A stretch of DNA of 64,000 nt from Synaphobranchus kaupii (lineage: Eukaryota > Chordata > Actinopteri > Anguilliformes > Synaphobranchidae), in the NCBI GenBank assembly GCA_029718625.1, contig CM056385.1, positions 28,117,960 through 28,181,959 of the forward strand, read 5' to 3'. Positions 1 through 61,200 of this stretch are shown here, piece after piece. Below the pieces are notes generated by a model. That model ran no database searches. It saw nothing but the letters and a program-made list of their open reading frames with translations, and was not told where the DNA came from. A program made the position numbers and the translations under genes. Every line of letters starts with the position of its first letter. Within the stretch, counting starts at the first letter, position 1.

Positions 1-219
1 ATTGGTTGACTGCATCAAGACTGAGTAGCTGATGAACCACAGAGAAATATAGCAGCAGCACTTGTGACTTCTTAAATTATGCTCTCAATGTAATAAATTC
101 CTAGCACCGATTTAAATAGCAACAGAATAGGAATCGGTTGACTGCATCAGCTGAAACCTAACAGTGAATAGCAGGTTCAGGCGTACTGTAATGTGCTGCC
201 AGTATCTCGTACTGCACCT

Positions 220-306
220 CTCATTCCTTCATAATTGCAGGACTTGTCGTCAAAGCCACATGGGCTCAGGCGATAGGACCGTGAAATTTGTAATCATCAG
301 GATGAG
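220..306 (-). ncRNA. SNORD96: C/D-box snoRNA, SNORD96 (U96)-like, array copy 1
   Basis: Minus-strand features in order: a terminal stem (CTCATCC pairs with GGAATGAG, one bulged base), box C CTGATGA (canonical RUGAUGA, first base C), box D' CTGA, a C'-like TTGACGA, then guide GTCCTGCAATT and box D. Box D reads ATGA instead of CTGA. The guide is complementary to 5.8S rRNA AATTGCAGGAC, and the fifth base upstream of D falls on the G known as Gm75, the SNORD96 target. Human SNORD96A lies in a RACK1 intron and has nearly the same 3' end. It would guide 2'-O-methylation of 5.8S rRNA with fibrillarin in the nucleolus. Expression is not known. Confidence 0.8.
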
Positions 307-529
307 TTCTCTTAATGATCAACTCCTCTCAAATTTACAGACACAATGCCAGCAACAGACTTGGCACTTTGCACTGCAGGTAGGCGGTGTCCCTGGCCAG
401 ACGTGACATGCAATGACGAAGTATAGATTTTGGAATTTTCCAGCCTTATCTGGTCCGTTGGCACGGACGCACAAAAAACAGGCGACCAAGCTTGTGTATG
501 TGTGTGCGCACGCGGGCGTGGCCTCCTAC

Positions 530-623
530 CTTGACCATCTTCTCCCACCCGCAGGAGACGATGATGGGGTTGCTGCTGTTCAGAGAAACGCACGCAGGAC
601 ACCCACTCAGTGTGGCTCTCGTC
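530..623 (-). pseudogene. rack1: rack1 exon 4, array copy 1 (2-bp deletion)
   Basis: The 94-bp block is flanked on the minus strand by acceptor TGTCCCGCAG and donor GTAGGAGG. It encodes DESHTEWVSCVRFS and then, after a shift of frame, NSSNPIIVSCGWEKMVK. This is the WD40 blade of RACK1 whose exon is 96 bp in intact genes; two bases are missing after the VRFS codons, where the proline codon should stand. Splice sites look usable, but any transcript is out of frame. RACK1 is the 40S-bound seven-blade WD scaffold. Confidence 0.88.
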
Positions 624-1755
624 CTGCGGGACACAGGGAAGTGCGATGAAGGTTAACTTAGTTCACCGTTTCCCCACAACCCTGCCCCTCTCACAACCAT
701 AGATTTGTCCATTTCACTCAGTTGCTCTTAAATGGTGGGTTGTGTGAGAGGTTGAGGTTGATTGTGAGAATGTTAAATGTGGCTGGGGAAAAAAAAAAAA
801 GTATACTTCAAATTACACACAAAGCTGTTCCCCCTGGTCAAATGAATCACTGCACTAGTTACCTGCACTGTGCTAGTTAGTGTGCAGTCATTTTGACACG
901 CTAAAACATTTAAAATCCAAGTATGCTTGGCTACATATTAATTAGGGGTGGGTCACAGAATGGTCCTCCATTCAGTAAGTAGGACATGGGCGGCGACTGT
1001 TTGGAAACCACTGGTTTAACGAAATCCTGAAAAGTTTAACTCACCCCACTGAACCTGAAAGCTCAAGACCGAATCAGAATCAGAGCCCCATCTACTATGT
1101 CCTGTGTACTAGCATACTGCTTAGTGACATGCAGTATGCAAAACATATACTCCATAATTTTATCAGAGAAAACCCAAAAATAAGTATATCATCCGGGGAT
1201 TTTAAGTACACTAAATATTTAGAACATTTTGCCTTTGTTAACTTTCTCATCCAGTGTACTCAACAAGCATACTCTGTAGTATGTAAGGGCGCTGATTCGG
1301 ACATGGCCAGGGTGTCATGGACCATGTGCAGCAGAAATACTGGATTTGATCCCAGCTGAGGTTTTGATAATTGACTGAACTAGCTAATATGTAGACATCA
1401 ATGCATTGGGCAAGCACGTCACAACCAATTTCAACTGCCTTTTACACCCATTTGCCTGAACAGCTTTTATTAGCAAATTTGAGCACACCAACTTCTGAAA
1501 TTAAGCTCCAAATTTTTAAACCGTAACAGAAATAGAAATGGGTTGACTGCATCAAGACTGAGTAGCTGATCAACCAGAGAAATATAGCAGCAGTACTTGT
1601 AACTTCTTAAATTATTCTCTAAATGTAATAAATTCCTCGCACCTATTTAAATAGCAACAGAAATAGGAATCGGTTGACTGCATCAGCTCAAACCTAACAG
1701 TGAACAGCAGGTTCAGGCGTACTGTAATGTGCTGCCAGTATCTCGTACTGCACCT

Positions 1756-1842
1756 CTCATTCCTTCATAATTGCAGGACTTGTCGTCAAAGCCACATGGG
1801 CTCAGGCGATAGGACCGTGAAATTTGTAATCATCAGGATGAG
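1756..1842 (-). ncRNA. SNORD96: SNORD96-like C/D snoRNA, array copy 2
   Basis: Same boxes, guide and terminal stem as copy 1; no difference seen within the core. Confidence 0.78.
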
Positions 1843-2065
1843 TTCTCTTAATGATCAACTCCTCTCAAATTTACAGACACAATGCCAGCAACAGACTTGG
1901 CACTTTGCACTGCAGGTAGGCGGTGTCCCTGGCCAGACGTGACATGCAATGACGAAGTATAGATTTTGGAATTTTCCTGCCTTATCTGGTCCGTTGGCAC
2001 GGACGCACAAAAAACAGGCGACCAAGCTTGTGTATGTGTGTGCGCACGCGGGCGTGGCCTCCTAC

Positions 2066-2159
2066 CTTGACCATCTTCTCCCACCCGCAGGAGACGATGA
2101 TGGGGTTGCTGCTGTTCAGAGAAACGCACGCAGGACACCCACTCAGTGTGGCTCTCGTC
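2066..2159 (-). pseudogene. rack1: rack1 exon 4, array copy 2
   Basis: Same 94-bp exon with the shared 2-bp deletion and intact AG/GT borders. Confidence 0.87.
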
Positions 2160-3291
2160 CTGCGGGACACAGGGAAGTGCGATGAAGGTTAACTTAGTTC
2201 ACCGTTTCCCCACAACCCTGCCCCTCTCACAACCATAGATTTGTCCATTTCACTCAGTTGCTCTTAAATGGTGGGTTGTGTGAGAGGTTGAGGTTGATTG
2301 TGAGAATGTTAAATGTGGCTGGGGAAAAAAAAAAAAGTATACTTCAAATTACACACAAAGCTGTTCCCCCTGGTCAAATGAATCACTGCACTAGTTACCT
2401 GCACTGTGCTAGTTAGTGTGCAGTCATTTTGACACGCTAAAACATTTAAAATCCAAGTATGCTTGGCTACATATTAATTAGGGGTGGGTCACAGAATGGT
2501 CCTCCATTCAGTAAGTAGGACATGGGCGGCGACTGTTTGGAAACCACTGGTTTAACGAAATCCTGAAAAGTTTAACTCACCCCACTGAACCTGAAAGCTC
2601 AAGACCGAATCAGAATCAGAGCCCCATCTACTATGTCCTGTGTACTAGCATACTGCTTAGTGACATGCAGTATGCAAAACATATACTCCATAATTTTATC
2701 AGAGAAAACCCAAAAATAAGTATATCATCCGGGGATTTTAAGTACACTAAATATTTAGAACATTTTGCCTTTGTTAACTTTCTCATCCAGTGTACTCAAC
2801 AAGCATACTCTGTAGTATGTAAGGGCGCTGATTCGGACATGGCCAGGGTGTCATGGACCATGTGCAGCAGAAATACTGGATTTGATCCCAGCTGAGGTTT
2901 TGATAATTGACTGAACTAGCTAATATGTAGACATCAATGCATTGGGCAAGCACATCACAACCAATTTCAACTGCCTTTTACACCCATTTGCCTGAACAGC
3001 TTTTATTAGCAAATTTGAGCACACCAACTTCTGAAATTAAGCTCCAAATTTTTAAACCGTAACAGAAATAGAAATGGGTTGACTGCATCAAGACTGAGTA
3101 GCTGATCAACCAGAGAAATATAGCAGCAGTACTTGTAACTTCTTAAATTATTCTCTAAATGTAATAAATTCCTCGCACCTATTTAAATAGCAACAGAAAT
3201 AGGAATCGGTTGACTGCATCAGCTCAAACCTAACAGTGAACAGCAGGTTCAGGCGTACTGTAATGTGCTGCCAGTATCTCGTACTGCACCT

Positions 3292-3378
3292 CTCATTCCT
3301 TCATAATTGCAGGACTTGTCGTCAAAGCCACATGGGCTCAGGCGATAGGACCGTGAAATTTGTAATCATCAGGATGAG
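3292..3378 (-). ncRNA. SNORD96: SNORD96-like C/D snoRNA, array copy 3
   Basis: Core identical to copy 1, with intact guide to 5.8S rRNA and box D ATGA. Confidence 0.78.
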
Positions 3379-3601
3379 TTCTCTTAATGATCAACTCCTC
3401 TCAAATTTACAGACACAATGCCAGCAACAGACTTGGCACTTTGCACTGCAGGTAGGCGGTGTCCCTGGCCAGACGTGACATGCAATGACGAAGTATAGAT
3501 TTTGGAATTTTCCTGCCTTATCTGGTCCGTTGGCACGGACGCACAAAAAACAGGCGACCAAGCTTGTGTATGTGTGTGCGCACGCGGGCGTGGCCTCCTA
3601 C

Positions 3602-3695
3602 CTTGACCATCTTCTCCCACCCGCAGGAGACGATGATGGGGTTGCTGCTGTTCAGAGAAACGCACGCGGGACACCCACTCAGTGTGGCTCTCGTC
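3602..3695 (-). pseudogene. rack1: rack1 exon 4, array copy 3
   Basis: Same shared deletion. One private change (plus-strand CACGCGGGAC instead of CACGCAGGAC) replaces the cysteine of WVSCVRFS with arginine. Confidence 0.87.
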
Positions 3696-4827
3696 CTGCG
3701 GGACACAGGGAAGTGCGATGAAGGTTAACTTAGTTCACCGTTTCCCCACAACCCTGCCCCTCTCACAACCATAGATTTGTCCATTTCACTCAGTTGCTCT
3801 TAAATGGTGGGTTGTGTGAGAGGTTGAGGTTGATTGTGAGAATGTTAAATGTGGCTGGGGAAAAAAAAAAAAGTATACTTCAAATTACACACAAAGCTGT
3901 TCCCCCTGGTCAAATGAATCACTGCACTAGTTACCTGCACTGTGCTAGTTAGTGTGCAGTCATTTTGACACGCTAAAACATTTAAAATCCAAGTATGCTT
4001 GGCTACATATTAATTAGGGGTGGGTCACAGAATGGTCCTCCATTCAGTAAGTAGGACATGGGCGGCGACTGTTTGGAAACCACTGGTTTAACGAAATCCT
4101 GAAAAGTTTAACTCACCCCACTGAAACTGAAAGCTCAAGACCGAATCAGAATCAGAGCCCCATCTACTATGTCCTGTGTACTAGCATACTGCTTAGTGAC
4201 ATGCAGTATGCAAAACATATACTCCATAATTTTATCAGAGAAAACCCAAAAATAAGTATATCATCCGGGGATTTTAAGTACACTAAATATTTAGAACATT
4301 TTGCCTTTGTTAACTTTCTCATCCAGTGTACTCAACAAGCATACTCTGTAGTATGTAAGGGCGCTGATTCAGACATGGCCAGGGTGTCATGGACCATGTG
4401 CAGCAGAAATACTGGATTTGATCCCAGCTGAAGTTTTGATAATTGACTGAACTAGCTAATATGTAGACAGAAATGCATTGGGCAAGCACGTCACAACCAA
4501 ATTAAACTGCCTTTTACACCCATTTGCCTGAACAGCTTTTATTAGCAAATTTGAGCACACCAACTTCTGAAATTAAGCTCCAAATTTTTAAACCGTAACA
4601 GAAATAGAAATGGGTTGACTGCATCAAGACTGAGTATCTGATCAACCAGAGAAATATAGCAGCAGTACTTGTAACTTCTTAAATTATTCTCTAACTGTAA
4701 TAAATTCCTCGCACCTATTTAAATAGCAACAGAAATAGGAATCGGTTGACTGCATCAGCTCAAACCTAACAGTGAACAGCAGGTTCAGGCGTACTGTAAT
4801 GTGCTGCCAGTATCTCGTACTGCACCT

Positions 4828-4914
4828 CTCATTCCTTCATAATTGCAGGACTTGTCGTCAAAGCCACATGGGCTCAGGCGATAGGACCGTGAAATTTGTA
4901 ATCATCAGGATGAG
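4828..4914 (-). ncRNA. SNORD96: SNORD96-like C/D snoRNA, array copy 4
   Basis: Core identical to copy 1. Confidence 0.78.
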
Positions 4915-5137
4915 TTCTCTTAATGATCAACTCCTCTCAAATTTACAGACACAATGCCAGCAACAGACTTGGCACTTTGCACTGCAGGTAGGCAGTGTCC
5001 CTGGCCAGACGTGACATGCAATGACGAAGTATAGATTTTGGAATTTTCCTGCCTTATCTGGTCCGTTGGCACGGACGCACAAAAAACAGGCGACCAAGCT
5101 TGTGTATGTGTGTGCGCACGCGGGCGTGGCCTCCTAC

Positions 5138-5231
5138 CTTGACCATCTTCTCCCACCCGCAGGAGACGATGATGGGGTTGCTGCTGTTCAGAGAAACGCA
5201 CGCAGGACACCCACTCAGTGTGGCTCTCGTC
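5138..5231 (-). pseudogene. rack1: rack1 exon 4, array copy 4
   Basis: Same exon, same deletion, borders intact. Confidence 0.87.
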
Positions 5232-6364
5232 CTGCGGGACACAGGGAAGTGCGATGAAGGTTAACTTAGTTCACCGTTTCCCCACAACCCTGCCCCTCTC
5301 ACAACCATAGATTTGTCCATTTCACTCAGTTGCTCTTAAATGGTGGGTTGTGTGAGAGGTTGAGGTTGATTGTGAGAATGTTAAATGTGGCTGGGGGAAA
5401 AAAAAAAAAGTATACTTCAAATTACACACAAAGCTGTTCCCCCTGGTCAAATGAATCACTGCACTAGTTACCTGCACTGTGCTAGTTAGTGTGCAGTCAT
5501 TTTGACACGCTAAAACATTTAAAATCCAAGTATGCTTGGCTACATATTAATTAGGGGTGGGTCACAGAATGGTCCTCCATTCAGTAAGTAGGACATGGGC
5601 GGCGACTGTTTGGAAACCACTGGTTTAACGAAATCCTGAAAAGTTTAACTCACCCCACTGAACCTGAAAGCTCAAGACCGAATCAGAATCAGAGCCCCAT
5701 CTACTATGTCCTGTGTACTAGCATACTGCTTAGTGACATGCAGTATGCAAAACATATACTCCATAATTTTATCAGAGAAAACCCAAAAATAAGTATATCA
5801 TCCGGGGATTTTAAGTACACTAAATATTTAGAACATTTTGCCTTTGTTAACTTTCTCATCCAGTGTACTCAACAAGCATACTCTGTAGTATGTAAGGGCG
5901 CTGATTCGGACATGGCCAGGGTGTCATGGACCATGTGCAGCAGAAATACTGGATTTGATCCCAGCTGAGGTTTTGATAATTGACTGAACTAGCTAATATG
6001 TAGACAGAAATGCATTGGGCAAGCACGTCACAACCAAATTAAACTGCCTTTTACACCCATTTGCCTGAACAGCTTTTATTAGCAAATTTGAGCACACCAA
6101 CTTCTGAAATTAAGCTCCAAATTTTTAAACCGTAACAGAAATAGAAATGGGTTGACTGCATCAAGACTGAGTATCTGATCAACCAGAGAAATATAGCAGC
6201 AGTACTTGTAACTTCTTAAATTATTCTCTAACTGTAATAAATTCCTCGCACCTATTTAAATAGCAACAGAAATAGGAATCGGTTGACTGCATCAGCTCAA
6301 ACCTAACAGTGAACAGCAGGTTCAGGCGTACTGTAATGTGCTGCCAGTATCTCGTACTGCACCT

Positions 6365-6451
6365 CTCATTCCTTCATAATTGCAGGACTTGTCGTCAAAG
6401 CCACATGGGCTCAGGCGATAGGACCGTGAAATTTGTAATCATCAGGATGAG
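6365..6451 (-). ncRNA. SNORD96: SNORD96-like C/D snoRNA, array copy 5
   Basis: Core identical to copy 1. Confidence 0.78.
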
Positions 6452-6674
6452 TTCTCTTAATGATCAACTCCTCTCAAATTTACAGACACAATGCCAGCAA
6501 CAGACTTGGCACTTTGCACTGCAGGTAGGCAGTGTCCCTGGCCAGACGTGACATGCAATGACGAAGTATAGATTTTGGAATTTTCCTGCCTTATCTGGTC
6601 CGTTGGCACGGACGCACAAAAAACAGGCGACCAAGCTTGTGTATGTGTGTGCGCACGCGGGCATGGCCTCCTAC

Positions 6675-6768
6675 CTTGACCATCTTCTCCCACCCGCAGG
6701 AGACGATGATGGGGTTGCTGCTGTTCAGAGAAACGCACGCAGGACACCCACTCAGTGTGGCTCTCGTC
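6675..6768 (-). pseudogene. rack1: rack1 exon 4, array copy 5
   Basis: Same exon and deletion. The downstream intron has a private G to A change near 6663 that leaves the donor intact. Confidence 0.87.
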
Positions 6769-7901
6769 CTGCGGGACACAGGGAAGTGCGATGAAGGTTA
6801 ACTTAGTTCACCGTTTCCCCACAACCCTGCCCCTCTCACAACCATAGATTTGTCCATTTCACTCAGTTGCTCTTAAATGGTGGGTTGTGTGAGAGGTTGA
6901 GGTTGATTGTGAGAATGTTAAATGTGGCTGGGGGAAAAAAAAAAAAGTATACTTCAAATTACACACAAAGCTGTTCCCCCTGGTCAAATGAATCACTGCA
7001 CTAGTTACCTGCACTGTGCTAGTTAGTGTGCAGTCATTTTGACACGCTAAAACATTTAAAATCCAAGTATGCTTGGCTACATATTAATTAGGGGTGGGTC
7101 ACAGAATGGTCCTCCATTCAGTAAGTAGGACATGGGCGGCGACTGTTTGGAAACCACTGGTTTAACGAAATCCTGAAAAGTTTAACTCACCCCACTGAAC
7201 CTGAAAGCTCAAGACCGAATCAGAATCAGAGCCCCATCTACTATGTCCTGTGTACTAGCATACTGCTTAGTGACATGCAGTATGCAAAACATATACTCCA
7301 TAATTTTATCAGAGAAAACCCAAAAATAAGTATATCATCCGGGGATTTTAAGTACACTAAATATTTAGAACATTTTGCCTTTGTTAACTTTCTCATCCAG
7401 TGTACTCAACAAGCATACTCTGTAGTATGTAAGGGCGCTGATTCGGACATGGCCAGGGTGTCATGGACCATGTGCAGCAGAAATACTGGATTTGATCCCA
7501 GCTGAGGTTTTGATAATTGACTGAACTAGCTAATATGTAGACATCAATGCATTGGGCAAGCACGTCACAACCAATTTCAACTGCCTTTTACACCCATTTG
7601 CCTGAACAGCTTTTATTAGCAAATTTGAGCACACCAACTTCTGAAATTAAGCTCCAAATTTTTAAACCGTAACAGAAATAGAAATGGGTTGACTGCATCA
7701 AGACTGAGTAGCTGATCAACCAGAGAAATATAGCAGCAGTACTTGTAACTTCTTAAATTATTCTCTAAATGTAATAAATTCCTCGCACCTATTTAAATAG
7801 CAACAGAAATAGGAATCGGTTGACTGCATCAGCTCAAACCTAACAGTGAACAGCAGGTTCAGGCGTACTGTAATGTGCTGCCAGTATCTCGTACTGCACC
7901 T

Positions 7902-7988
7902 CTCATTCCTTCATAATTGTAGGACTTGTCGTCAAAGCCACATGGGCTCAGGCGATAGGACCGTGAAATTTGTAATCATCAGGATGAG
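7902..7988 (-). ncRNA. SNORD96: SNORD96-like C/D snoRNA, array copy 6 (guide mutated)
   Basis: As copy 1 except for one change at plus-strand position 7920 (C to T), which turns the guide TCCTGCAATT into TCCTACAATT. The mismatch falls next to the base that selects the methylated G of 5.8S rRNA, so this copy should guide less well or another target. Boxes and stem are unchanged. Confidence 0.72.
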
Positions 7989-8211
7989 TTCTCTTAATGA
8001 TCAACTCCTCTCAAATTTACAGACACAATGCCAGCAACAGACTTGGCACTTTGCACTGCAGGTAGGCGGTGTCCCTGGCCAGACGTGACATGCAATGACG
8101 AAGTATAGATTTTGGAATTTTCCTGCCTTATCTGGTCCGTTGGCACGGACGCACAAAAAACAGGCGACCAAGCTTGTGTATGTGTGTGCGCACGCGGGCG
8201 TGGCCTCCTAC

Positions 8212-8305
8212 CTTGACCATCTTCTCCCACCCGCAGGAGACGATGATGGGGTTGCTGCTGTTCAGAGAAACGCACGCAGGACACCCACTCAGTGTGGCTC
8301 TCGTC
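8212..8305 (-). pseudogene. rack1: rack1 exon 4, array copy 6
   Basis: Same exon, same deletion, borders intact. Confidence 0.87.
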
Positions 8306-9438
8306 CTGCGGGACACAGGGAAGTGCGATGAAGGTTAACTTAGTTCACCGTTTCCCCACAACCCTGCCCCTCTCACAACCATAGATTTGTCCATTTCACT
8401 CAGTTGCTCTTAAATGGTGGGTTGTGTGAGAGGTTGAGGTTGATTGTGAGAATGTTAAATGTGGCTGGGGAAAAAAAAAAAAAGTATACTTCAAATTACA
8501 CACAAAGCTGTTCCCCCTGGTCAAATGAATCACTGCACTAGTTACCTGCACTGTGCTAGTTAGTGTGCAGTCATTTTGACACGCTAAAACATTTAAAATC
8601 CAAGTATGCTTGGCTACATATTAATTAGGGGTGGGTCACAGAATGGTCCTCCATTCAGTAAGTAGGACATGGGCGGCGACTGTTTGGAAACCACTGGTTT
8701 AACGAAATCCTGAAAAGTTTAACTCACCCCACTGAAACTGAAAGCTCAAGACCGAATCAGAATCAGAGCCCCATCTACTATGTCCTGTGTACTAGCATAC
8801 TGCTTAGTGACATGCAGTATGCAAAACATATACTCCATAATTTTATCAGAGAAAACCCAAAAATAAGTATATCATCCGGGGATTTTAAGTACACTAAATA
8901 TTTAGAACATTTTGCCTTTGTTAACTTTCTCATCCAGTGTACTCAACAAGCATACTCTGTAGTATGTAAGGGCGCTGATTCAGACATGGCCAGGGTGTCA
9001 TGGACCATGTGCAGCAGAAATACTGGATTTGATCCCAGCTGAAGTTTTGATAATTGACTGAACTAGCTAATATGTAGACAGAAATGCATTGGGCAAGCAC
9101 GTCACAACCAAATTAAACTGCCTTTTACACCCATTTGCCTGAACAGCTTTTATTAGCAAATTTGAGCACACCAACTTCTGAAATTAAGCTCCAAATTTTT
9201 AAACCGTAACAGAAATAGAAATGGGTTGACTGCATCAAGACTGAGTATCTGATCAACCAGAGAAATATAGCAGCAGTACTTGTAACTTCTTAAATTATTC
9301 TCTAACTGTAATAAATTCCTCGCACCTATTTAAATAGCAACAGAAATAGGAATCGGTTGACTGCATCAGCTCAAACCTAACAGTGAACAGCAGGTTCAGG
9401 CGTACTGTAATGTGCTGCCAGTATCTCGTACTGCACCT

Positions 9439-9525
9439 CTCATTCCTTCATAATTGCAGGACTTGTCGTCAAAGCCACATGGGCTCAGGCGATAGGACCG
9501 TGAAATTTGTAATCATCAGGATGAG
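9439..9525 (-). ncRNA. SNORD96: SNORD96-like C/D snoRNA, array copy 7
   Basis: Core identical to copy 1. Confidence 0.78.
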
Positions 9526-9748
9526 TTCTCTTAATGATCAACTCCTCTCAAATTTACAGACACAATGCCAGCAACAGACTTGGCACTTTGCACTGCAGGT
9601 AGGCGGTGTCCCTGGCCAGACGTGACATGCAATGACGAAGTATAGATTTTGGAATTTTCCTGCCTTATCTGGTCCGTTGGCACGGACGCACAAAAAACAG
9701 GCGACCAAGCTTGTGTATGTGTGTGCGCACGCGGGCGTGGCCTCCTAC

Positions 9749-9842
9749 CTTGACCATCTTCTCCCACCCGCAGGAGACGATGATGGGGTTGCTGCTGTTC
9801 AGAGAAACGCACGCAGGACACCCACTCAGTGTGGCTCTCGTC
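9749..9842 (-). pseudogene. rack1: rack1 exon 4, array copy 7
   Basis: Same exon, same deletion, borders intact. Confidence 0.87.
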
Positions 9843-10975
9843 CTGCGGGACACAGGGAAGTGCGATGAAGGTTAACTTAGTTCACCGTTTCCCCACAACC
9901 CTGCCCCTCTCACAACCATAGATTTGTCCATTTCACTCAGTTGCTCTTAAATGGTGGGTTGTGTGAGAGGTTGAGGTTGATTGTGAGAATGTTAAATGTG
10001 GCTGGGGGAAAAAAAAAAAAGTATACTTCAAATTACACACAAAGCTGTTCCCCCTGGTCAAATGAATCACTGCACTAGTTACCTGCACTGTGCTAGTTAG
10101 TGTGCAGTCATTTTGACACGCTAAAACATTTAAAATCCAAGTATGCTTGGCTACATATTAATTAGGGGTGGGTCACAGAATGGTCCTCCATTCAGTAAGT
10201 AGGACATGGGCGGCGACTGTTTGGAAACCACTGGTTTAACGAAATCCTGAAAAGTTTAACTCACCCCACTGAACCTGAAAGCTCAAGACCGAATCAGAAT
10301 CAGAGCCCCATCTACTATGTCCTGTGTACTAGCATACTGCTTAGTGACATGCAGTATGCAAAACATATACTCCATAATTTTATCAGAGAAAACCCAAAAA
10401 TAAGTATATCATCCGGGGATTTTAAGTACACTAAATATTTAGAACATTTTGCCTTTGTTAACTTTCTCATCCAGTGTACTCAACAAGCATACTCTGTAGT
10501 ATGTAAGGGCGCTGATTCGGACATGGCCAGGGTGTCATGGACCATGTGCAGCAGAAATACTGGATTTGATCCCAGCTGAGGTTTTGATAATTGACTGAAC
10601 TAGCTAATATGTAGACAGAAATGCATTGGGCAAGCACGTCACAACCAAATTAAACTGCCTTTTACACCCATTTGCCTGAACAGCTTTTATTAGCAAATTT
10701 GAGCACACCAACTTCTGAAATTAAGCTCCAAATTTTTAAACCGTAACAGAAATAGAAATGGGTTGACTGCATCAAGACTGAGTATCTGATCAACCAGAGA
10801 AATATAGCAGCAGTACTTGTAACTTCTTAAATTATTCTCTAACTGTAATAAATTCCTCGCACCTATTTAAATAGCAACAGAAATAGGAATCGGTTGACTG
10901 CATCAGCTCAAACCTAACAGTGAACAGCAGGTTCAGGCGTACTGTAATGTGCTGCCAGTATCTCGTACTGCACCT

Positions 10976-11062
10976 CTCATTCCTTCATAATTGCAGGACT
11001 TGTCGTCAAAGCCACATGGGCTCAGGCGATAGGACCGTGAAATTTGTAATCATCAGGATGAG
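10976..11062 (-). ncRNA. SNORD96: SNORD96-like C/D snoRNA, array copy 8
   Basis: Core identical to copy 1. Confidence 0.78.
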
Positions 11063-11285
11063 TTCTCTTAATGATCAACTCCTCTCAAATTTACAGACAC
11101 AATGCCAGCAACAGACTTGGCACTTTGCACTGCAGGTAGGCGGTGTCCCTGGCCAGACGTGACATGCAATGACGAAGTATAGATTTTGGAATTTTCCTGC
11201 CTTATCTGGTCCGTTGGCACGGACGCACAAAAAACAGGCGACCAAGCTTGTGTATGTGTGTGCGCACGCGGGCGTGGCCTCCTAC

Positions 11286-11379
11286 CTTGACCATCTTCTC
11301 CCACCCGCAGGAGACGATGATGGGGTTGCTGCTGTTCAGAGAAACGCACGCAGGACACCCACTCAGTGTGGCTCTCGTC
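11286..11379 (-). pseudogene. rack1: rack1 exon 4, array copy 8
   Basis: Same exon, same deletion, borders intact. Confidence 0.87.
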
Positions 11380-12509
11380 CTGCGGGACACAGGGAAGTGC
11401 GATGAAGGTTAACTTAGTTCACCGTTTCCCCACAACCCTGCCCCTCTCACAACCATAGATTTGTCCATTTCACTCAGTTGCTCTTAAATGGTGGGTTGTG
11501 TGAGAGGTTGAGGTTGATTGTGAGAATGTTAAATGTGGCTGGGGAAAAAAAAAAAAGTATACTTCAAATTACACACAAAGCTGTTCCCCCTGGTCAAATG
11601 AATCACTGCACTAGTTACCTGCACTGTGCTAGTTAGTGTGCAGTCATTTTGACACGCTAAAACATTTAAAATCCAAGTATGCTTGGCTACATATTAATTA
11701 GGGGTGGGTCACAGAATGGTCCTCCATTCAGTAAGTAGGACATGGGCGGCGACTGTTTGGAAACCACTGGTTTAACGAAATCCTGAAAAGTTTAACTCAC
11801 CCCACTGAAACTGAAAGCTCAAGACCGAATCAGAATCAGAGCCCCATCTACTATGTCCTGTGTACTAGCATACTGCTTAGTGACATGCAGTATGCAAAAC
11901 ATATACTCCATAATTTTATCAGAGAAAACCCAAAAATAAGTATATCATCCGGGGATTTTAAGTACACTAAATATTTAGAACATTTTGCCTTTGTTAACTT
12001 TCTCATCCAGTGTACTCAACAAGCATACTCTGTAGTATGTAAGGGCGCTGATTCAGACATGGCCAGGGTGTCATGGACCATGTGCAGCAGAAATACTGGA
12101 TTTGATCCCAGCTGAAGTTTTGATAATTGACAACTAGCTAATATGTAGACAGAAATGCATTGGGCAAGCACGTCACAACCAAATTAAACTGCCTTTTACA
12201 CCCATTTGCCTGAACAGCTTTTATTAGCAAATTTGAGCACACCAACTTCTGAAATTAAGCTCCAAATTTTTAAACCGTAACAGAAATAGAAATGGGTTGA
12301 CTGCATCAAGACTGAGTATCTGATCAACCAGAGAAATATAGCAGCAGTACTTGTAACTTCTTAAATTATTCTCTAACTGTAATAAATTCCTCGCACCTAT
12401 TTAAATAGCAACAGAAATAGGAATCGGTTGACTGCATCAGCTCAAACCTAACAGTGAACAGCAGGTTCAGGCGTACTGTAATGTGCTGCCAGTATCTCGT
12501 ACTGCACCT

Positions 12510-12596
12510 CTCATTCCTTCATAATTGCAGGACTTGTCGTCAAAGCCACATGGGCTCAGGCGATAGGACCGTGAAATTTGTAATCATCAGGATGAG
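12510..12596 (-). ncRNA. SNORD96: SNORD96-like C/D snoRNA, array copy 9
   Basis: Core identical to copy 1. Confidence 0.78.
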
Positions 12597-12819
12597 TTCT
12601 CTTAATGATCAACTCCTCTCAAATTTACAGACACAATGCCAGCAACAGACTTGGCACTTTGCACTGCAGGTAGGCAGTGTCCCTGGCCAGACGTGACATG
12701 CAATGACGAAGTATAGATTTTGGAATTTTCCTGCCTTATCTGGTCCGTTGGCACGGACGCACAAAAAACAGGCGACCAAGCTTGTGTATGTGTGTGCGCA
12801 CGCGGGCGTGGCCTCCTAC

Positions 12820-12913
12820 CTTGACCATCTTCTCCCACCCGCAGGAGACGATGATGGGGTTGCTGCTGTTCAGAGAAACGCACGCAGGACACCCACTCAG
12901 TGTGGCTCTCGTC
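12820..12913 (-). pseudogene. rack1: rack1 exon 4, array copy 9
   Basis: Same exon, same deletion, borders intact. Confidence 0.87.
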
Positions 12914-14046
12914 CTGCGGGACACAGGGAAGTGCGATGAAGGTTAACTTAGTTCACCGTTTCCCCACAACCCTGCCCCTCTCACAACCATAGATTTGTCC
13001 ATTTCACTCAGTTGCTCTTAAATGGTGGGTTGTGTGAGAGGTTGAGGTTGATTGTGAGAATGTTAAATGTGGCTGGGGGAAAAAAAAAAAAGTATACTTC
13101 AAATTACACACAAAGCTGTTCCCCCTGGTCAAATGAATCACTGCACTAGTTACCTGCACTGTGCTAGTTAGTGTGCAGTCATTTTGACACGCTAAAACAT
13201 TTAAAATCCAAGTATGCTTGGCTACATATTAATTAGGGGTGGGTCACAGAATGGTCCTCCATTCAGTAAGTAGGACATGGGCGGCGACTGTTTGGAAACC
13301 ACTGGTTTAACGAAATCCTGAAAAGTTTAACTCACCCCACTGAAACTGAAAGCTCAAGACCGAATCAGAATCAGAGCCCCATCTACTATGTCCTGTGTAC
13401 TAGCATACTGCTTAGTGACATGCAGTATGCAAAACATATACTCCATAATTTTATCAGAGAAAACCCAAAAATAAGTATATCATCCGGGGATTTTAAGTAC
13501 ACTAAATATTTAGAACATTTTGCCTTTGTTAACTTTCTCATCCAGTGTACTCAACAAGCATACTCTGTAGTATGTAAGGGCGCTGATTCAGACATGGCCA
13601 GGGTGTCATGGACCATGTGCAGCAGAAATACTGGATTTGATCCCAGCTGAAGTTTTGATAATTGACTGAACTAGCTAATATGTAGACAGAAATGCATTGG
13701 GCAAGCACGTCACAACCAAATTAAACTGCCTTTTACACCCATTTGCCTGAACAGCTTTTATTAGCAAATTTGAGCACACCAACTTCTGAAATTAAGCTCC
13801 AAATTTTTAAACCGTAACAGAAATAGAAATGGGTTGACTGCATCAAGACTGAGTATCTGATCAACCAGAGAAATATAGCAGCAGTACTTGTAACTTCTTA
13901 AATTATTCTCTAACTGTAATAAATTCCTCACACCTATTTAAATAGCAACAGAAATAGGAACTGGTTGACTGCATCAGCTCAAACCTAACAGTGAACAGCA
14001 GGTTCAGGCGTACTGTAATGTGCTGCCAGTATCTCGTACTGCACCT

Positions 14047-14133
14047 CTCATTCCTTCATAATTGCAGGACTTGTCGTCAAAGCCACATGGGCTCAGGCGA
14101 TAGGACCGTGAAATTTGTAATCATCAGGATGAG
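14047..14133 (-). ncRNA. SNORD96: SNORD96-like C/D snoRNA, array copy 10
   Basis: Core identical to copy 1. Confidence 0.78.
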
Positions 14134-14356
14134 TTCTCTTAATGATCAACTCCTCTCAAATTTACAGACACAATGCCAGCAACAGACTTGGCACTTTGCA
14201 CTGCAGGTAGGCGGTGTCCCTGGCCAGACGTGACATGCAATGACGAAGTATAGATTTTGGAATTTTCCTGCCTTATCTGGTCCGTTGGCACGGACGCACA
14301 AAAAACAGGCGACCAAGCTTGTGTATGTGTGTGCGCACGCGGGCGTGGCCTCCTAC

Positions 14357-14450
14357 CTTGACCATCTTCTCCCACCCGCAGGAGACGATGATGGGGTTGC
14401 TGCTGTTCAGAGAAACGCACGCAGGACACCCACTCAGTGTGGCTCTCGTC
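14357..14450 (-). pseudogene. rack1: rack1 exon 4, array copy 10 (closest to exon 3)
   Basis: Same exon with the shared deletion. It is the first exon 4 met after exon 3 when reading the minus strand, about 1.4 kb downstream of it. Confidence 0.87.
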
Positions 14451-15582
14451 CTGCGGGACACAGGGAAGTGCGATGAAGGTTAACTTAGTTCACCGTTTCC
14501 CCACAACCCTGCCCCTCTCACAACCATAGATTTGTCCATTTCACTCAGTTGCTCTTAAATGGTGGGTTGTGTGAGAGGTTGAGGTTGATTGTGAGAATGT
14601 TAAATGTGGCTGGGGAAAAAAAAAAAAGTATACTTCAAATTACACACAAAGCTGTTCCCCCTGGTCAAATGAATCACTGCACTAGTTACCTGCACTGTGC
14701 TAGTTAGTGTGCAGTCATTTTGACACGCTAAAACATTTAAAATCCAAGTATGCTTGGCTACATATTAATTAGGGGTGGGTCACAGAATGGTCCTCCATTC
14801 AGTAAGTAGGACATGGGCGGCGACTGTTTGGAAACCACTGGTTTAACGAAATCCTGAAAAGTTTAACTCACCCCACTGAAACTGAAAGCTCAAGACCGAA
14901 TCAGAATCAGAGCCCCATCTACTATGTCCTGTGTACTAGCATACTGCTTAGTGACATGCAGTATGCAAAACATATACTCCATAATTTTATCAGAGAAAAC
15001 CCAAAAATAAGTATATCATCCGGGGATTTTAAGTACACTAAATATTTAGAACATTTTGCCTTTGTTAACTTTCTCATCCAGTGTACTCAACAAGCATACT
15101 CTGTAGTATGTAAGGGCGCTGATTCAGACATGGCCAGGGTGTCATGGACCATGTGCAGCAGAAATACTGGATTTGATCCCAGCTGAAGTTTTGATAATTG
15201 ACTGAACTAGCTAATATGTAGACAGAAATGCATTGGGCAAGCACGTCACAACCAAATTAAACTGCCTTTTACACCCATTTGCCTGAACAGCTTTTATTAG
15301 CAAATTTGAGCACACCAACTTCTGAAATTAAGCTCCAAATTTTTAAACCGTAACAGAAATAGAAATGGGTTGACTGCATCAAGACTGAGTATCTGATCAA
15401 CCAGAGAAATATAGCAGCAGTACTTGTAACTTCTTAAATTATTCTCTAACTGTAATAAATTCCTCACACCTATTTAAATAGCAACAGAAATAGGAACTGG
15501 TTGACTGCATCAGCTCAAACCTAACAGTGAACAGCAGGTTCAGGCGTACTGTAATGTGCTGCCAGTATCTCGTACTTCACCT

Positions 15583-15669
15583 CTCATTCCTTCATAATTG
15601 CAGGACTTGTCGTCAAAGCCACATGGGCTCAGGCGATAGGACCGTGAACTTTGTAATCATCAGGATGAG
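15583..15669 (-). ncRNA. SNORD96: SNORD96-like C/D snoRNA, proximal copy in intron 3
   Basis: This is the copy nearest rack1 exon 3 and probably the founder. Guide and boxes match the array copies. One base between box C and D' differs (AAAGTTCAC against AAATTTCAC in the array, minus strand). Its stem is a little longer because the 5' flank reads CCTCATCC, pairing with GGAATGAGAGG. Upstream sequence here differs from the array, which marks the array boundary. Confidence 0.8.
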
Positions 15670-15858
15670 GTCAGTCTCCTAATCATCTTAATGAGGGCAT
15701 CGCCACACAAATACATAGATGCGCTGTCAGCAATTTAGACAAGGACAGACGGCACGGGACAAAGCTCACCTTTCACTCTGTTCCACTGTATTCTACCTTT
15801 ATAGTTATATACACACAAAACACAATGCAATGTAATAGAAATCTGACAGGGGACTCAC

Positions 15859-16175
15859 CTAGATGGTGTACTTGCAAACCCCCAGGGTGTTCCAGAGCTT
15901 TACGGTCTTGCCCCGGGAGCGACACAATCTGCCGGTTATCGGCAGAGAAGGCCACGCTCAGGAGTTCCTTGGTGTGACCGACAAATCGCCGGGTTGTGTT
16001 GCCTCTGATGAGTGAGACCAGAGATGGGGCTTGTCTACGCCACCCTCCTACCCGGACAGGGCGAACTGCCCGTCGGAGGAGAAGACCACGTCACTCACAA
16101 AGTGCTCGTGCCCTTGCAGCGACCGCTGAGAGATGCCGTAGTCACGAGTCAGCTTCCACATGATTCCGGTCCTAT
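15859..16175 (-). pseudogene. rack1: rack1 exons 2-3, fused and frameshifted
   Basis: After acceptor CTCCAG the minus strand reads [31 protein letters not shown] and [10 protein letters not shown], then after a garbled ~48-bp stretch [20 protein letters not shown] and NRQIVS, then in another frame [16 protein letters not shown]. These are RACK1 WD40 blades 1-3 in order. Lesions: three residues (ETN-like) are missing after LTRD; the SWDGTLRLWDLTTG segment is corrupted; two bases are missing after NRQIVS; and the final glutamine codon is TAG directly before donor GTGAGT. No proper intron separates the two exons here. I conclude this is a decayed paralogue; the intact rack1 should be elsewhere. 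Confidence 0.88.
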
Positions 16176-17032
16176 CTGGAGTGGCAGGAGACAAACGCAG
16201 GTGCATAACTGCAAGTGAGCTGAATTCAGAGAAAATGCGAAACAAGAAAGGACAGCCAATGGAAAGAGCACTACACGGGTGGCCATTCAGTACATTACCC
16301 AAAACTGCAGTGTGACAGAAAAGGTGTCAGAACCTTAATTGTAATCAGCTAGCAATTTATGGCAATCAAAGAAACTGAGAATTATGACAGCAGGTCAGAC
16401 AAAAAAAGAAACGTGCATTTACCTGCATGGTGTAGGCTACAACAGTATTTGTGTTCAGCATTAAACATTCACCAGTTGATTGATAACATTACTATTCTGC
16501 AATATTAATTTTATCCCGACAATCGTAATAAGCCTTATTACGATCAACACTCTTATCGAAGACTCGCTCCAAGATTGAAAAGTCGATCTCGGAATCTTCA
16601 GCGAACGTTACTAGGGCCTACATTACAATGCTGATTATAATACAGCAAAGTGACCCAAGCAGCGCAAAGCACGTCATTTTCAAATACCACGACTTGAAGT
16701 GCCGACTAGGCTACTGTGGCACTTGAACACGCGTTTTTATAGCTTTTACGGTCTATGGTTTGTGGTCGTGCTTGGATTGATAACCGGTTGGTTTGCTAGC
16801 GAAGTTAGCCAGAAAACTGAACCGTTGATGACGGTTACATTGACGTTACATTTTTACAAACTATAGAGTCATGTGTTTGCCTACGCTAACATCGGTTAAC
16901 ACGCTGTAGCGGCAACGTTGCATTGAACTGCAGAAACAGTAGATTTTAATTTGTAGAACGGACTTCTCCAGCCAGTAACAACGTGGCAGTAATGGCTCGT
17001 ATCCGGCGCCGTTATGGCGGCAGCTCGGTTAC

Positions 17033-17113
17033 CTCTGGACGCAGACAGGATCATATCGGGAACCTGCGGAGTGGCGATCTGGGTAACCCAACCCTCACGG
17101 TCATCTGTTCCAT
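17033..17113 (-). pseudogene. rack1: rack1 exon 1, with start codon and ~22-bp deletion
   Basis: ATG at 17113-17111 is followed by codons for MEQMTVR, then by WVTQIATPQVPDMILSASR and a splice donor GGTAAC. The family start is [22 protein letters not shown]. The GTLKGHN block is lost with a change of frame, so the initiator frame does not reach the WVTQIA frame. One further threonine codon is missing. The exon ends one base into a codon, as the intact gene does. A 0.86-kb intron (16176-17032), in which I see no second snoRNA, separates it from exon 2. Confidence 0.85.
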
Positions 17114-17575
17114 AATTTTGGAGAAGGTAAACCGTGCCTTTCGGGGATGATGGAGTCGGATTTAGGCAGGAGGCCTCGCTCGCCTGGCTTCTCTTCTTAA
17201 GCTTTCCGGCAGACTTAACGCTTGTGAGCGTATTGCTACCTTCCACCGCTCCAGCTGCACTGCTGCAGGCGTGGAGTGCCCACAGACTTCTTATATACTT
17301 CTGATGTGGGAGCGCCGCAGTTATATAAAACGCATGCGCAGTTTAGAGAAAGACAATTTTAGACCAAGGCCGTGACCGAATACGACCCCTTAACCCCTTT
17401 GAATGCGCATATTTGAGTCCAAAAGCTTTTGAGTGGGCGACCTTTCCTCACAAATGGGGACACGAAAAATACCAGGATGAAACCCTTATTTCCTGGGTTT
17501 TCTTGAGGGAATTCAGGAGCACACTCATCCGCAGAACTGTGCACTCATCCGACAATTTCAGTAAGTAACCCGGAA
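17114..17575 (-). promoter_or_regulatory. Probable former rack1 5' UTR and promoter
   Basis: On the minus strand a TATATAAG box (17290-17297) lies about 180 bp upstream of the ATG, and a second TTATATAA lies at about 17316-17324. I do not see a clear pyrimidine start tract of the kind expected for a TOP-type ribosomal gene. Beyond about 17340 there is no recognisable feature until the hAT-like element. Confidence 0.35.
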
Positions 17576-18283
17576 GTAAAAACTAGTGATGTGTCGTTCA
17601 TGAACGATCCGATTCTTTTGAACGGCTCTTTGGTAGGAACGAAGGGAACCGAGTCTCGTAGGCTATCTGAGCCGTTATTTTTTGCCAAGTTTTCCCTAGA
17701 CTCGAGTGTTTCCCATCAAAAATATTTCATAAAACGCGACCATGTTTTTGGTATATTATATTTTATATTAGAGTACATTTCCATAGCCTATAAGATTTTA
17801 GTCACGTTAACTGTCGCTGTTAAAAAATACAGAGCGAAGTTCACAAACTCCGTTGGTAGGTTTAAATACATTTCCCATGCACCCCTACTGGGGGATGACG
17901 TTGTCGAATGTGTTGTTTTGATACTTGTGTTGCTTTCGTCTCTCTATCGCTCAACTTCCACAACCTTGCATAATATATCGACAGGAAGTCTTACGTCTTG
18001 TAAAGTGAGTGGGAAAATATTATACATTAGGCTATATAGCCTATATTACATTGTGGAATAAAATCCAGGTCTGAAAATGAATCAACCAGAATGTGTCTGA
18101 ATATTAGTGGTATAAACAATAAGTACATAATCCTTGCAGGCATTGGGCAGGGTGTAACGGCAGGGAGATTGAGGGAGTGCCCCTCATCTTCCACCCAGGT
18201 ATTCTCACAGACAAAGGCATGAGAGGGAATGATGAGGCCTAAAACAATATATGAGGACTGTATTTAATTATACAGAATGTATT

Positions 18284-32652: not shown

Positions 32653-35600
32653 CTGGTGATTTTTTTTTTTTTTAAAAGCAGGGGTAAGGGGTAAGTACGT
32701 TTTGCAATTATTCTTGCATTTGTTTTTTTTGTTTTTTCTGGAAAATTTCAAATAAAGTTGAATGTCTTCTCATTCACACAAATTAAATGAGAAATGGTGC
32801 TCAATGGGTAAACCGGTGCAATAAAATGAATAAATACAGTGAGTATGCAGTGCAATAAAATACACAAATATATAGCACTGTTCATGCAAGAATCCCAGCT
32901 TTACAATGCCATTAATACTGAAAGAAATCTACTAATAGTCCAAAGAGGAATAGGCAGTGTAAGAACAATCCCAGCATCTTTTCTTTGGATGTTTTCGGTT
33001 AGATGTGTAGATGTGACACAGGAAGTGGGGTACTACATTTCCTGTCCAAAGGAGACACAGGAAGTGGAGTACCACTGTGAGGTCACCCACCACAGGGCAG
33101 GGCTGGTCCAGTCCGGGTGGCCCCTGTTCCCCTTTCTGTCCTTTCAGTCCCTTCTTCCCCAATGCACCCCGGTCTCCCTGCAAATACCAAGGGCATAGGG
33201 ACGAAAATGGCATCATAGCGCCCTCCTCGGCCAAAAGTGTCACGTATGCCAGTGGTCCGCAATATGTTTTAACATTGAACACAAGTGTCATGTATGCCAG
33301 TGGTCCGCAATATGTTTTAACATTGAACACAAGTGTCATGTATGCCAGTGGTCCGCAATATGTTTTAACATTGAACACAAGTGTCATGTATGCCAGTGGT
33401 CCGCAATATGTTTTAACATTGAACACAAGTGTCATGTATGCCAGTGGTCCGCAATATGTTTTAACATTGAACACAAGTGTCATGTATGCCAGTGGTCCGC
33501 AATATGTTTTAACATTGAACACAAGTGTCATGTATGCCAGTGGTCCTCAATATGTTTTAACATTGAACACAAGTGTCATGTATGCCAGTGGTCCTCAATA
33601 TGTTTTAACATTGAACACAAGTGTCATGTATGCCAGTGGTCCGCAATATGTTTTAACATTGAACACAAGTGTCATGTATGCCAGTGGTCCTCAATATGTT
33701 TTAACATTGAACACAAGTGTCATGTATGCCAGTGGTCCGCAATATGTTTTAACATTGAACACAAGTGTCATGTATGCCAGTGGTCCTCAATATGTTTTAA
33801 CATTGAACACAAGTGTCATGTATGCCAGTGGTCCTCAATATGTTTTAACATTGAACACAAGTATCATGTATGCCAGTGGTCCGCAATATGTTTTAACATT
33901 GAACACAAGTGTCATGTATGCCAGTGGTCCTCAATATGTTTTAACATTGAACACAAGTGTCATGTATGCCAGTGGTCCTCAATATGTTTTAACATTGAAC
34001 ACAAGTATCATGTATGCCAGTGGTCCGCAATATGTTTTAACATTGAACACAAGTGTCATGTATGCCAGTGGTCCTCAATATGTTTTAACATTGAACACAA
34101 GTGTCATGTATGCCAGTGGTCCGCAATATGTTTTAACATTGAACACAAGTGTCATGTATGCCAGTGGTCCTCAATATGTTTTAACATTGAACACAAGTGT
34201 CACGTATGCCAGTGGTCCGCAATATGTTTTAACATTGAACACAAGTGTCATGTATGCCAGTGGTCCTCAATATGTTTTAACATTGAACACAAGTGTCATG
34301 TATGCCAGTGGTCCTCAATATGTTTTAACATTGAACACAAGTGTCATGTATGCCAGTGGTCCGCAATATGTTTTAACATTGAACACAAGTGTCATGTATG
34401 CCAGTGGTCCTCAATATGTTTTAACATTGAACACAAGTGTCATGTATGCCAGTGGTCCTCAATATGTTTTAACATTGAACACAAGTGTCATGTATGCCAG
34501 TGGTCCTCAATATGTTTTAACATTGAACACAAGTGTCATGTATGCCAGTGGTCCTCAATATGTTTTAACATTGAACACAAGTGTCATGTATGCCAGTGGT
34601 CCTCAATATGTTTTAACATTGAACACAAGTGTCATGTATGCCAGTGGTCCGCAATATGTTTTAACATTGAACACAAGTGTCATGTATGCCAGTGGTCCTC
34701 AATATGTTTTAACATTGAACACAAGTGTCATGTATGCCAGTGGTCCTCAATATGTTTTAACATTGAACACAAGTGTCATGTATGCCAGTGGTCCTCAATA
34801 TGTTTTAACATTGAACACAAGTGTCATGTATGCCAGTGGTCCTCAATATGTTTTAACATTGAACACAAGTGTCATGTATGCCAGTGGTCCTCAATATGTT
34901 TTAACATTGAACACAAGTTGGCACAGTGACGCTTTACAGACTGAGAGGGGGAACCCTCATGCATTTACATACAGAAACCACATGTAAATGATCATTACGC
35001 TAGTCCCCTGCAGTTAGACATTTAGATGTAAATAGGTGCATAAGCATCAATGTGTGATCAGCTCTGGCACTGCACTATGAATTGTTTTCAAGCATTATGA
35101 CATCAGGACTTCTGCATCCCTACCTTATCCCCTTTGATCCCCTGGTCTCCCTTTTCTCCCATCAGCCCTGGAAAACCCTGCAGCAACAGAACAGGGAAGC
35201 TAGTGTACCTGCATGGCATTTTGGACATCAGAACACCAGGGCAGCAGCGGAGATTTGATCCACTAACCAGGTGGTCAACTCCAAATTCTTAACTTAGAAG
35301 TTCTGATTGTCATGGGTTGCACCTGTCGTTCCTTAGTTTGTTCGTTCTTTTCTTTTCGTCAGGGCAATCTATCGGATTTTCCGTGTTCCAAACCAGGGTT
35401 TCTTTTCTTTCCGGCACTTAGTGATTGCACCTGCTTTAGGTTTCCTGTCTCTATTTAAGCCCAGGATTTCCTTCTTTCGGTGCTTGGTTGTTATTTTGCT
35501 CATTCTGACACTAAGCCGGTAAGGTATAGGTAGGCACTCTAAGGAGACCTCTTTCCTCCATCGCCTTGCTTTGGAGTTATGAGGGACTTGCCTTCTTGTG

Positions 35601-37100
35601 CTTTAGACACACATAGGATACACGCTTTCCTTTGCATTTTCTGTCCCTCGCTCCAGTTACCTTTCTAGTCTCTCGGAGACGGCTTTATTTTCCGTTTCTC
35701 TCTACCTCTCTTTATTTCTTTGTTTTCTCTTTAATCGAGAGTGAGAGGTATTTTCCTTTTACTTTTATTTCTCGAGCTTACGAGCCTCGTTCGCCCGATT
35801 ATTTTCAGGTCGCTATTATTTATCCCTTTTTTCAGTCTCCTCTGTATTGCTCTCCGGTTTTGAGAGTAGGAACTGTTTTTCGTTCTCCGTTTTCTTCCCT
35901 ATTCGCGGATTTCTGTCTGCTCCACTGGTGTTCATATTTGGACACTTTAAGAATCCCTTTTGTCGCATCTGGTCCTCCGAACCATTCACCTCCCCCTTAC
36001 ACTGATTTGACTGAAGCCGAAGAGGCATCCCCAAGAACAATGCTGACAGCAATTGATCTATGTTTGGTCCTTAGGCCTTCCTCATCATTTACATTTATAT
36101 GTAGTAATATAACACTGGAAATTCTGGTTACCAACCAAAACCTGGAGTAAGGAGGTAAATGACAGAAGGAACACAGGAGCTAAGGAACACAGGAGCTGAC
36201 TATCTGGCTACAATAGAGAATCTCTGGCAGAGGTTATCAGGCATGTAAAGCATATGATCGGGTAAACGGTTGTGATATTAAATCTGTACTCACATCTAGG
36301 CCAGGCTCCCCAGGCTTTCCCTGTTGAAAAGCAATCAAACAATCACCTGATCATCCCCCAGTTTAATTGGCTAATAATTGTTCTCTCCCTCTCCACCTCA
36401 GCTGATGTGTGGTGAGCGTTCTGGTGCAAAATGGCTGCCACTGCATCACCCAGGTGGGTGCTACACATTGGTGGTGGTTGAGGGGAGTTTCCCCCTCATC
36501 ATTTTAAAGCGCTTTCAGTGTGAGAAAAATGCAATATACTGTTTTGCAATATTACTATTTTTATTATAATCAGTGACAGTTCCTTCAGAGAATGGCAGCA
36601 CTTTGACCCTGGGTTCCACTGCCCTGCTGGTTTCCACCCTATAAAGCCTTAACTGGACTATTAATGACAGCACACGTTATTCCACGTGTGCTCTGCACCT
36701 GTTTATTGAAATGTGGGCGCCTGGCACATTAAAAGTGTGGAGCTGCCTGTCCCTGCTGTAAAGGTTTCCTCAGTTCACTCACTGACCTTTTCACCTTTGG
36801 TCCCTGGGAGCCCATACAGTCCCGGTAGACCCTGTAAGCCCTGAAAATGGTGAGAGATATCGGGACCTCAGTGTTGGCCGCAGTGTCTGAATGAACGTGT
36901 GCATGTGTGTGCACATGTGGTTGTGTTAATGCAAGTGAGTCAGTGTGTATGCATGTTCATGCACATGGGAATGGTCTGTGTGTGGTGGGACTGTATGTGT
37001 GCCTGTGTATCTTTGCATGTGGCTGTGTGCGTACTTGCACATGTCCGCTTGTGTATGTTTGTATGGATGCGTGATCACTCTATGTGTGCTAATGCGTGTG

Positions 37101-37147
<47 letters not shown>

Positions 37148-59825: not shown

Positions 59826-61200
59826 GAGGAACGTTTGGGATCTTTAAAGAATGTTCCCTATACAGCCCTGTAATGTCATTGCAGAACATTACATTGGGAA
59901 CATTCTGGGGTGTATAAGGGAATGTTACTCCAAGATCACAAAAGAACATTCCAGGAACATCCCATAAATGTCACAGACATTGCAATGCATTCCCTGGATG
60001 TTGAAATGTTGAGTTCCCTTCAAGTCCTCAGAACATTCCTAAAACTTGAATGCGGAACGTCCCCTTCACATTCCATGAACATTCTATGTAACATTAAGGG
60101 AATGTTCTTGGAATGTTAGTAGAAACATTCCCTTTGGGTTTATCTAACACTTTAATTTAACGTCCCCTTACTGTGAGACCGGACTACATTGCTAACATTC
60201 CCCATACATTCTTGCCACGTCATTACAAAATGTTATTTTGTGAACATTCTGGGGTGTATAGGGGAATGTTGCTCCAAGATAACAGAATAACATTCCAGGA
60301 ACATCCCATAAATATCACAAATGTTGCAATGCGTTCCCTGGATGTCATAATATTGAGTTCCTTTCAAGTCCTCAGAACATTCCTAAAACATGATTGTCGA
60401 ACTTCCCCTTCACATTACAGGAACATTCTATGTAACATTAAGGGAGTGTTCTCGGAATGTTAGTCGAAACGTTCCTTTTGGGTTTCTCTAATGCTTGGAT
60501 TTAATGTTCCCTTACTGTGACACCGGAGTACATTGCTAGCATTCCCCAGACATTCTTGCCATTTCATTACAAAATGTTAGTTTGTGAACATTCCGGGGTG
60601 TATAGGAGAATGTTACTCCAAGATGACAAAATAACATTCCAGGAACATCCCATAAATGTCACAAACATTGCAATGTTTGTGGAACTTCCCCTTCACATTA
60701 CAGGAACATTCTATGTAACATTAAGGGAATGTTCTTGGAATGTTAGTAGAAACATTCCCTTTGGGTTTATCTAACACTTTAATTTAACGTCCCCTTACTG
60801 TGAGACCGGACTACATTGCTAACATTCCCCATACATTCTTGCCACGTCATTGCAAAACGTAACTTTGGGAACATTCTGGGGTGTATATATAGGGGAATGT
60901 TACTCCAAGATAACTAAAGAACATTCCAGGAACATCCCCCAAATGTTACAAATGTTGCAATGCGTTCCCTGTATGTCATAATGTTGTGTTCCTCTCAAGT
61001 CCTCAGAATATTTCTACAACTTGTTTGTGGAAATTCCCCTTCACATTACAGGACATTCTATGTAACATTAAGGGAATGTTCTCATAATGTTAGTAGAAAC
61101 GTTCATTTTTTCTCTAACGCTTGGATTTAATGTTCCCTTACTGTGAGACCGGAGTACATTGCTAACATTCCCCATACATTCTTGCCACGTCATTACAAAA
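59826..61200. repeat. ~345-bp tandem repeat rich in GGAATGTT/AACATTCC
   Basis: Four units begin near GGGAACATTCTGGGGTGTAT at about 59897, 60242, 60587 and 60868. The third unit has an internal deletion of about 60 bp. Each unit repeats AACATTCCAGGAACATCCCA and TAACATTAAGGGAATGTTCT. No coding function. Confidence 0.88.

Follow-up and report, generated by a model that had tools for sequence, protein, structure and literature searches.

A tandem array of SNORD96-like elements in a rack1 pseudogene of Synaphobranchus kaupii: probable amplification of a segment carrying a decayed passenger

The array and its host gene

The window analysed here, 64,000 nucleotides (nt) of Synaphobranchus kaupii contig CM056385.1 (positions 28,117,960 to 28,181,959), opens with a tandem array on the minus strand, in which an exon of a rack1 remnant and an 85-nt element resembling the small nucleolar RNA (snoRNA) SNORD96 are repeated head to tail, with one element per unit and a period of ~1,536 bp. 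The array is clipped at the window start, so its eleven element copies are a lower bound. An earlier note on this DNA had described eleven near-identical units at ~1.54-kb spacing, and this description held: the units measure 1,534-1,537 bp, pairwise identity among units 1-10 is 98.5-99.9%, and nine of the eleven elements match the reference (copy 2) exactly, the other two carrying a single-base difference. The features of the array and of the adjoining rack1 exons are as follows.

1..15672, minus strand: tandem array of ten units (1,534-1,537 bp each) and 309 bp of an eleventh, running off the window start
222..306, minus strand: SNORD96-like element copy 1; 0 mismatches to the reference, box C CTGATGA, box D ATGA
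1758..1842, minus strand: SNORD96-like element copy 2 (reference); SNORD96 is its top Rfam score, 17.8 bits against a gathering score of 43
3294..3378, minus strand: SNORD96-like element copy 3
4830..4914, minus strand: SNORD96-like element copy 4
6367..6451, minus strand: SNORD96-like element copy 5
7904..7988, minus strand: SNORD96-like element copy 6; one substitution in the guide (GTCCTACAATT)
9441..9525, minus strand: SNORD96-like element copy 7
10978..11062, minus strand: SNORD96-like element copy 8
12512..12596, minus strand: SNORD96-like element copy 9
14049..14133, minus strand: SNORD96-like element copy 10
15585..15669, minus strand: SNORD96-like element copy 11, in intron 3 and adjoining the single-copy exons; one mismatch to the reference
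15670..15673, no strand: array edge, where the repeat ends 0-3 bp upstream (minus strand) of element copy 11
2066..2159, minus strand: one of the rack1 exon 4 copies; 94 nt, with acceptor cag and donor gtaggagg retained
15862..16185, minus strand: single-copy rack1 exon 2/3 remnant (residues 34-142); two in-frame stops, a scrambled stretch, and TAG as its last codon, which is the final codon of rack1 exon 3
17034..17093, minus strand: rack1 exon 1 remnant (human residues 16-36, by tblastn); one codon missing

The host exons were located by tblastn with human RACK1, and the remnants were found to keep the order of the gene, all on the minus strand. Exon 4 is present in ten copies, with 5' ends at 623, 2159, 3695, 5231, 6768, 8305, 9842, 11379, 12913 and 14450; each is 94 nt long, 2 nt under the 96 expected from human RACK1 residues 144-175, and each retains its acceptor AG and donor GT. 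Exon 4 scores best against two RACK1 chains, which we take to be those of frog and zebrafish. The open reading frame across rack1 exons 1-4 is broken, by the stops in exon 2/3 and by the missing 2 nt of exon 4, in agreement with the dead rack1 host proposed earlier. Because non-coding sequence with splice-site dinucleotides still separates the exons, the host is a duplicated, non-processed rack1 pseudogene; given the importance of the gene, we infer that an intact rack1 lies elsewhere in the genome.

The element sits in a rack1 intron, between the exon remnants and on their strand. In the original order of transcription, the element lay ~190 nt into intron 3, after exon 3 and ~1.1 kb ahead of exon 4, which intron 4 followed. 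The repeat starts 0-3 bp upstream of the element, takes in exon 4 and stops ~220 nt inside intron 4. The amplified unit thus consists of part of intron 3, exon 4 and part of intron 4. The suggestion that an intron had been amplified with its snoRNA was incomplete as to the unit, which takes in an exon and stretches of both neighbouring introns. It follows from these boundaries that each repeat contains a chimeric intron, the start of intron 4 being joined to the end of intron 3, in which the element lies ~220 nt past the donor and ~1.1 kb ahead of the next acceptor. A 40-bp direct repeat (1515-1554 and 1646-1685, 87.5% alike and ~131 bp apart) adjoins the element and recurs at the unit period.

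SNORD96 ancestry of the element

When 121 nt around copy 2 were scanned against 4,227 Rfam families, SNORD96 (RF00055) ranked first, with 17.8 bits and an E value of 0.41. This is far from the gathering score of 43 bits, and the membership threshold is not reached; nor did any match to SNORD96 at the gathering score appear in the whole window. The two wider stretches that were scanned at E<=10, 1-3200 and 14000-17600, gave no SNORD96 match. Since eight further families also scored at E<=10 in the 121-nt scan (the runner-up being snoZ7, with 15.8 bits), the Rfam score by itself would be weak support for SNORD96 without the rack1 location.

The location is accompanied by two sequence likenesses. 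The last 23 nt of the element are identical to human SNORD96A at 21 of 23 positions, and the guide, GTCCTGCAATT, is exact in 10/11 copies. Its D+5 position pairs with G75 of 5.8S rRNA, which upholds the proposed pairing at the SNORD96 target. Against an expectation of 1.7, the guide 11-mer was counted 13 times in the window with at most one mismatch, of which 11 lie in the array and two elsewhere. According to PMC7812721, GNB2L1 is the host gene of human SNORD96A, whose predicted target is 5.8S Gm75. Taken together, the top Rfam family, the terminal identity and the rack1 location favour the SNORD96 ancestry put forward earlier, and the element very probably descends from SNORD96, as judged from sequence. 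Canonical SNORD96 membership was rejected, as both box D and the Rfam score fail.

A search for relatives of the element, by a pattern made up of box C, a gap, the guide and UGA, returned 7 viral and 12 prokaryote loci. When the element was compared with these loci by blastn (E<=1), the matches were limited to words of 12-18 nt, the longest of them around the guide that the pattern demands, and tblastn found no match to RACK1 at E<=1e-3. We took them to be chance matches and not intact relatives.

Boxes and terminal stem

The units had been called snoRNA-shaped, which was not borne out to the extent of a canonical C/D unit. Box D, absent from the list of boxes given in the earlier note, reads AUGA and not CUGA in 11/11 copies, and box C reads CUGAUGA, as against RUGAUGA, likewise in 11/11, the UGAUGA core being kept and the first base being a non-purine. 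According to PMC5689011, human box C/D kink-turns show strong conservation of G:C at the 4b:4n pair; by our own mapping, in which 4n is the first base of box D, the C-to-A change in box D swaps this pair for G.A.

The minimum free energy (MFE) structure of copy 2 contains a terminal stem of 7-8 bp with a bulged A, in a slipped register that lacks the 3-nt kink-turn bulge; kink-turns lie outside what the folding program models. Set in the kink-turn register, stem I has as its first six pairs U-A, A.G, C-G, U-A, C.A and A-U, such that four of the six innermost pairs form and the second and fifth are mismatched. Cofolding of the flanks (20+20 nt) gave -4.9 kcal/mol, no better than chance, as 306 of 500 placements drawn at random within the unit did as well or better, and MFE folding of the element was uninformative in the three stretches folded (z of -0.29, 0.00 and 0.00).

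According to PMC6770171, deletions of one nucleotide in C or D abolished guiding, while replacement of the U-U pair left the full-length guide unaffected and lowered activity in one variant; a single substitution is therefore not automatically fatal. In PMC10234308, snoRNA expression is tied to box conservation and the terminal stem, and degenerate boxes together with unstable terminal stems mark snoRNAs that are not expressed.

Variation among the units

We compared copies 2-10 over 1,536 bp, setting copies 1 and 11 aside for edge effects, and counted 18 substitution columns and three indel columns. Of the substitution columns, the element has one, against 1.0 expected in this low-power test, and exon 4 likewise one, against 1.1 expected. 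The sole change in the element strikes the guide (copy 6), and among copies 2-10 the element was not seen to be better conserved than the rest of the unit, the test being a weak one. At the low-coordinate edge, 14 of the 16 differences between copy 1 and copy 2 fall within the first 170 bp of copy 1. Such differences fit the edge effect expected in a homogenised array, and they may suggest that the array ends not far below the window start.

Origin of the array and alternative explanations

The array probably arose by tandem amplification of a rack1 pseudogene segment with a decayed SNORD96 passenger on board; its elements would most likely be pseudogene copies of the snoRNA, giving little or no stable snoRNA. 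The rack1 duplicate would have lost its reading frame ahead of amplification, and the passenger in its intron 3, which presumably began with a CUGA box D, probably lost the canonical box and a good kink-turn stem before amplification as well. The segment, with one end 0-3 bp upstream of the element, the other ~220 nt into intron 4 and exon 4 between them, would then have been duplicated head to tail, and unequal crossing over or gene conversion may have multiplied it to at least 10.2 units and evened out their sequences. We infer homogenisation from the 98.5-99.9% identity, the mosaic variants and the divergence at the low-coordinate edge. As the exon-4 lesion is common to 10/10 copies and the box departures to 11/11, decay most simply predates amplification, and for the host this is the order that had been proposed earlier; a later spread of the lesions by gene conversion is also possible.

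Several points weigh against decay. The guide is intact in 10/11 copies, and box D', as read from the sequence, is a clean CTGA. The SnoBIRD pseudogene rule for low-confidence predictions takes a C score >=2 together with a D score >=1, according to PMC12309372; our own approximation of its features gave the element a C score of 1 and a D score of 1, which leaves it outside the rule, and a terminal-stem score of ~-24.5 (5 bp x -4.9 kcal/mol), next to a cut-off of -25 for the class 'expressed'. By these approximated features the element is borderline, which counts against its being certainly dead. Since the AG and GT of exon 4 are kept in 10/10 copies, the locus may be a non-coding host that is spliced and has a snoRNA in every intron; AUGA might be the normal box D of this lineage; and the conservation test is low in power.

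The strongest of the alternatives is a working amplified cluster, in which the dead gene would serve as a non-coding host with a gain in dosage like that of SNORD115/116. Its exon 4 copies would be spliced together or skipped, and the chimeric introns would release a SNORD96 variant that methylates 5.8S G75. The intact splice signals at all ten exon copies, the guide, the D' box, the slipped stem of copy 2 and the near-uniformity of the array are in keeping with such a cluster. They are set against an AUGA box D and a non-purine start of box C in every copy, stem I mismatches in the kink-turn register, a score far under Rfam gathering, the absence of surplus conservation and a next acceptor ~1.1 kb away, on account of which the element would depend on its terminal stem. 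We therefore consider a working cluster unlikely, and its specific form, in which the pseudogene host doses 5.8S G75 methylation through an AUGA-box SNORD96 variant from at least 11 intronic copies, somewhat less likely again. The proposal that the array was retained or amplified for snoRNA dosage is likewise not supported, in view of the departures of boxes D and C in 11/11 copies and of the lack of excess conservation in a weak test.

That one or a few units were expanded in silico during assembly is considerably more doubtful. Identity between units of up to 99.9% would be expected of such an artefact, but linked variants and unit-specific indels distinguish the units, private changes occur at both visible edges, and the array is free of N (the 500 N of the window start at 49,826); as the leading explanation it was rejected on these copy-specific variants. 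Selection of the segment for a role other than that of a snoRNA, as a repeated exon 4, a regulatory sequence or a satellite, would suit a uniformity that covers the entire unit and not the element alone, but is hardly credible with exon 4 short by 2 nt in every copy and varying as by chance (1 column against 1.1 expected).

Other features of the window

Repeated triplets point to a probable collagen-like gene next to the array: eleven runs of at least five Gly-X-Y triplets, typical of collagen exons, were found on the minus strand, and no run of at least six triplets on the plus strand. The UnaL2 tails listed below belong to a long interspersed nuclear element (LINE) of a kind known from fish.

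33106-46891, minus strand: eleven runs of at least five Gly-X-Y triplets
33235-34918: 48-bp minisatellite, 35 copies, 98% matches, two forward frames open, between collagen-like exons
44930-45509: C-rich 30-bp minisatellite, 19 copies, adjoining a collagen-like exon
59894-60675: tandem repeat of 344 bp, 2.3 copies
19203, 21247 and 26555 (minus strand) and 52290 (plus strand): UnaL2 LINE 3' tails above Rfam gathering
From 49826: assembly gap of 500 N, outside the array

Comparison with known systems

No multi-copy SNORD96 array was described in the literature we found, as judged by titles and the openings of abstracts in a search that most subscription papers fall outside. If the copies are dead, the locus would be a clear case in which the segmental tandem duplication of a host pseudogene took a snoRNA with it, and it would caution against calling a snoRNA by an intact guide alone. 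If they are alive, a pseudogene would have turned into a snoRNA host and an AUGA box D would be tolerated.

The closest known system is human SNORD96 (RF00055), a passenger of a RACK1/GNB2L1 intron, with which the element shares the location in a rack1 intron and the same 11-nt 5.8S guide. It differs from human SNORD96 in its AUGA box D, its CUGAUGA box C, a stem mismatched in the kink-turn register, and a dead host that carries 11 copies or more. The SNORD115/SNORD116 cluster (Snhg14) and comparable multi-copy hosts of snoRNAs consist of tandem exon-intron units, with one element per intron, in a host without an open frame. The array resembles them in its repeated exon-intron units, its retained splice-site dinucleotides and a host that is likewise without an open frame, whereas the non-consensus boxes and the near-identical amplification of a pseudogene segment set it apart, as does its being known from sequence alone. 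With the snoRNA pseudogenes described in PMC10234308 and PMC12309372 it has in common non-consensus boxes, a weak terminal stem and a copied locus; in contrast to those, its copies form a tandem array within a host pseudogene, keep an intact guide and fall outside the first SnoBIRD filter.

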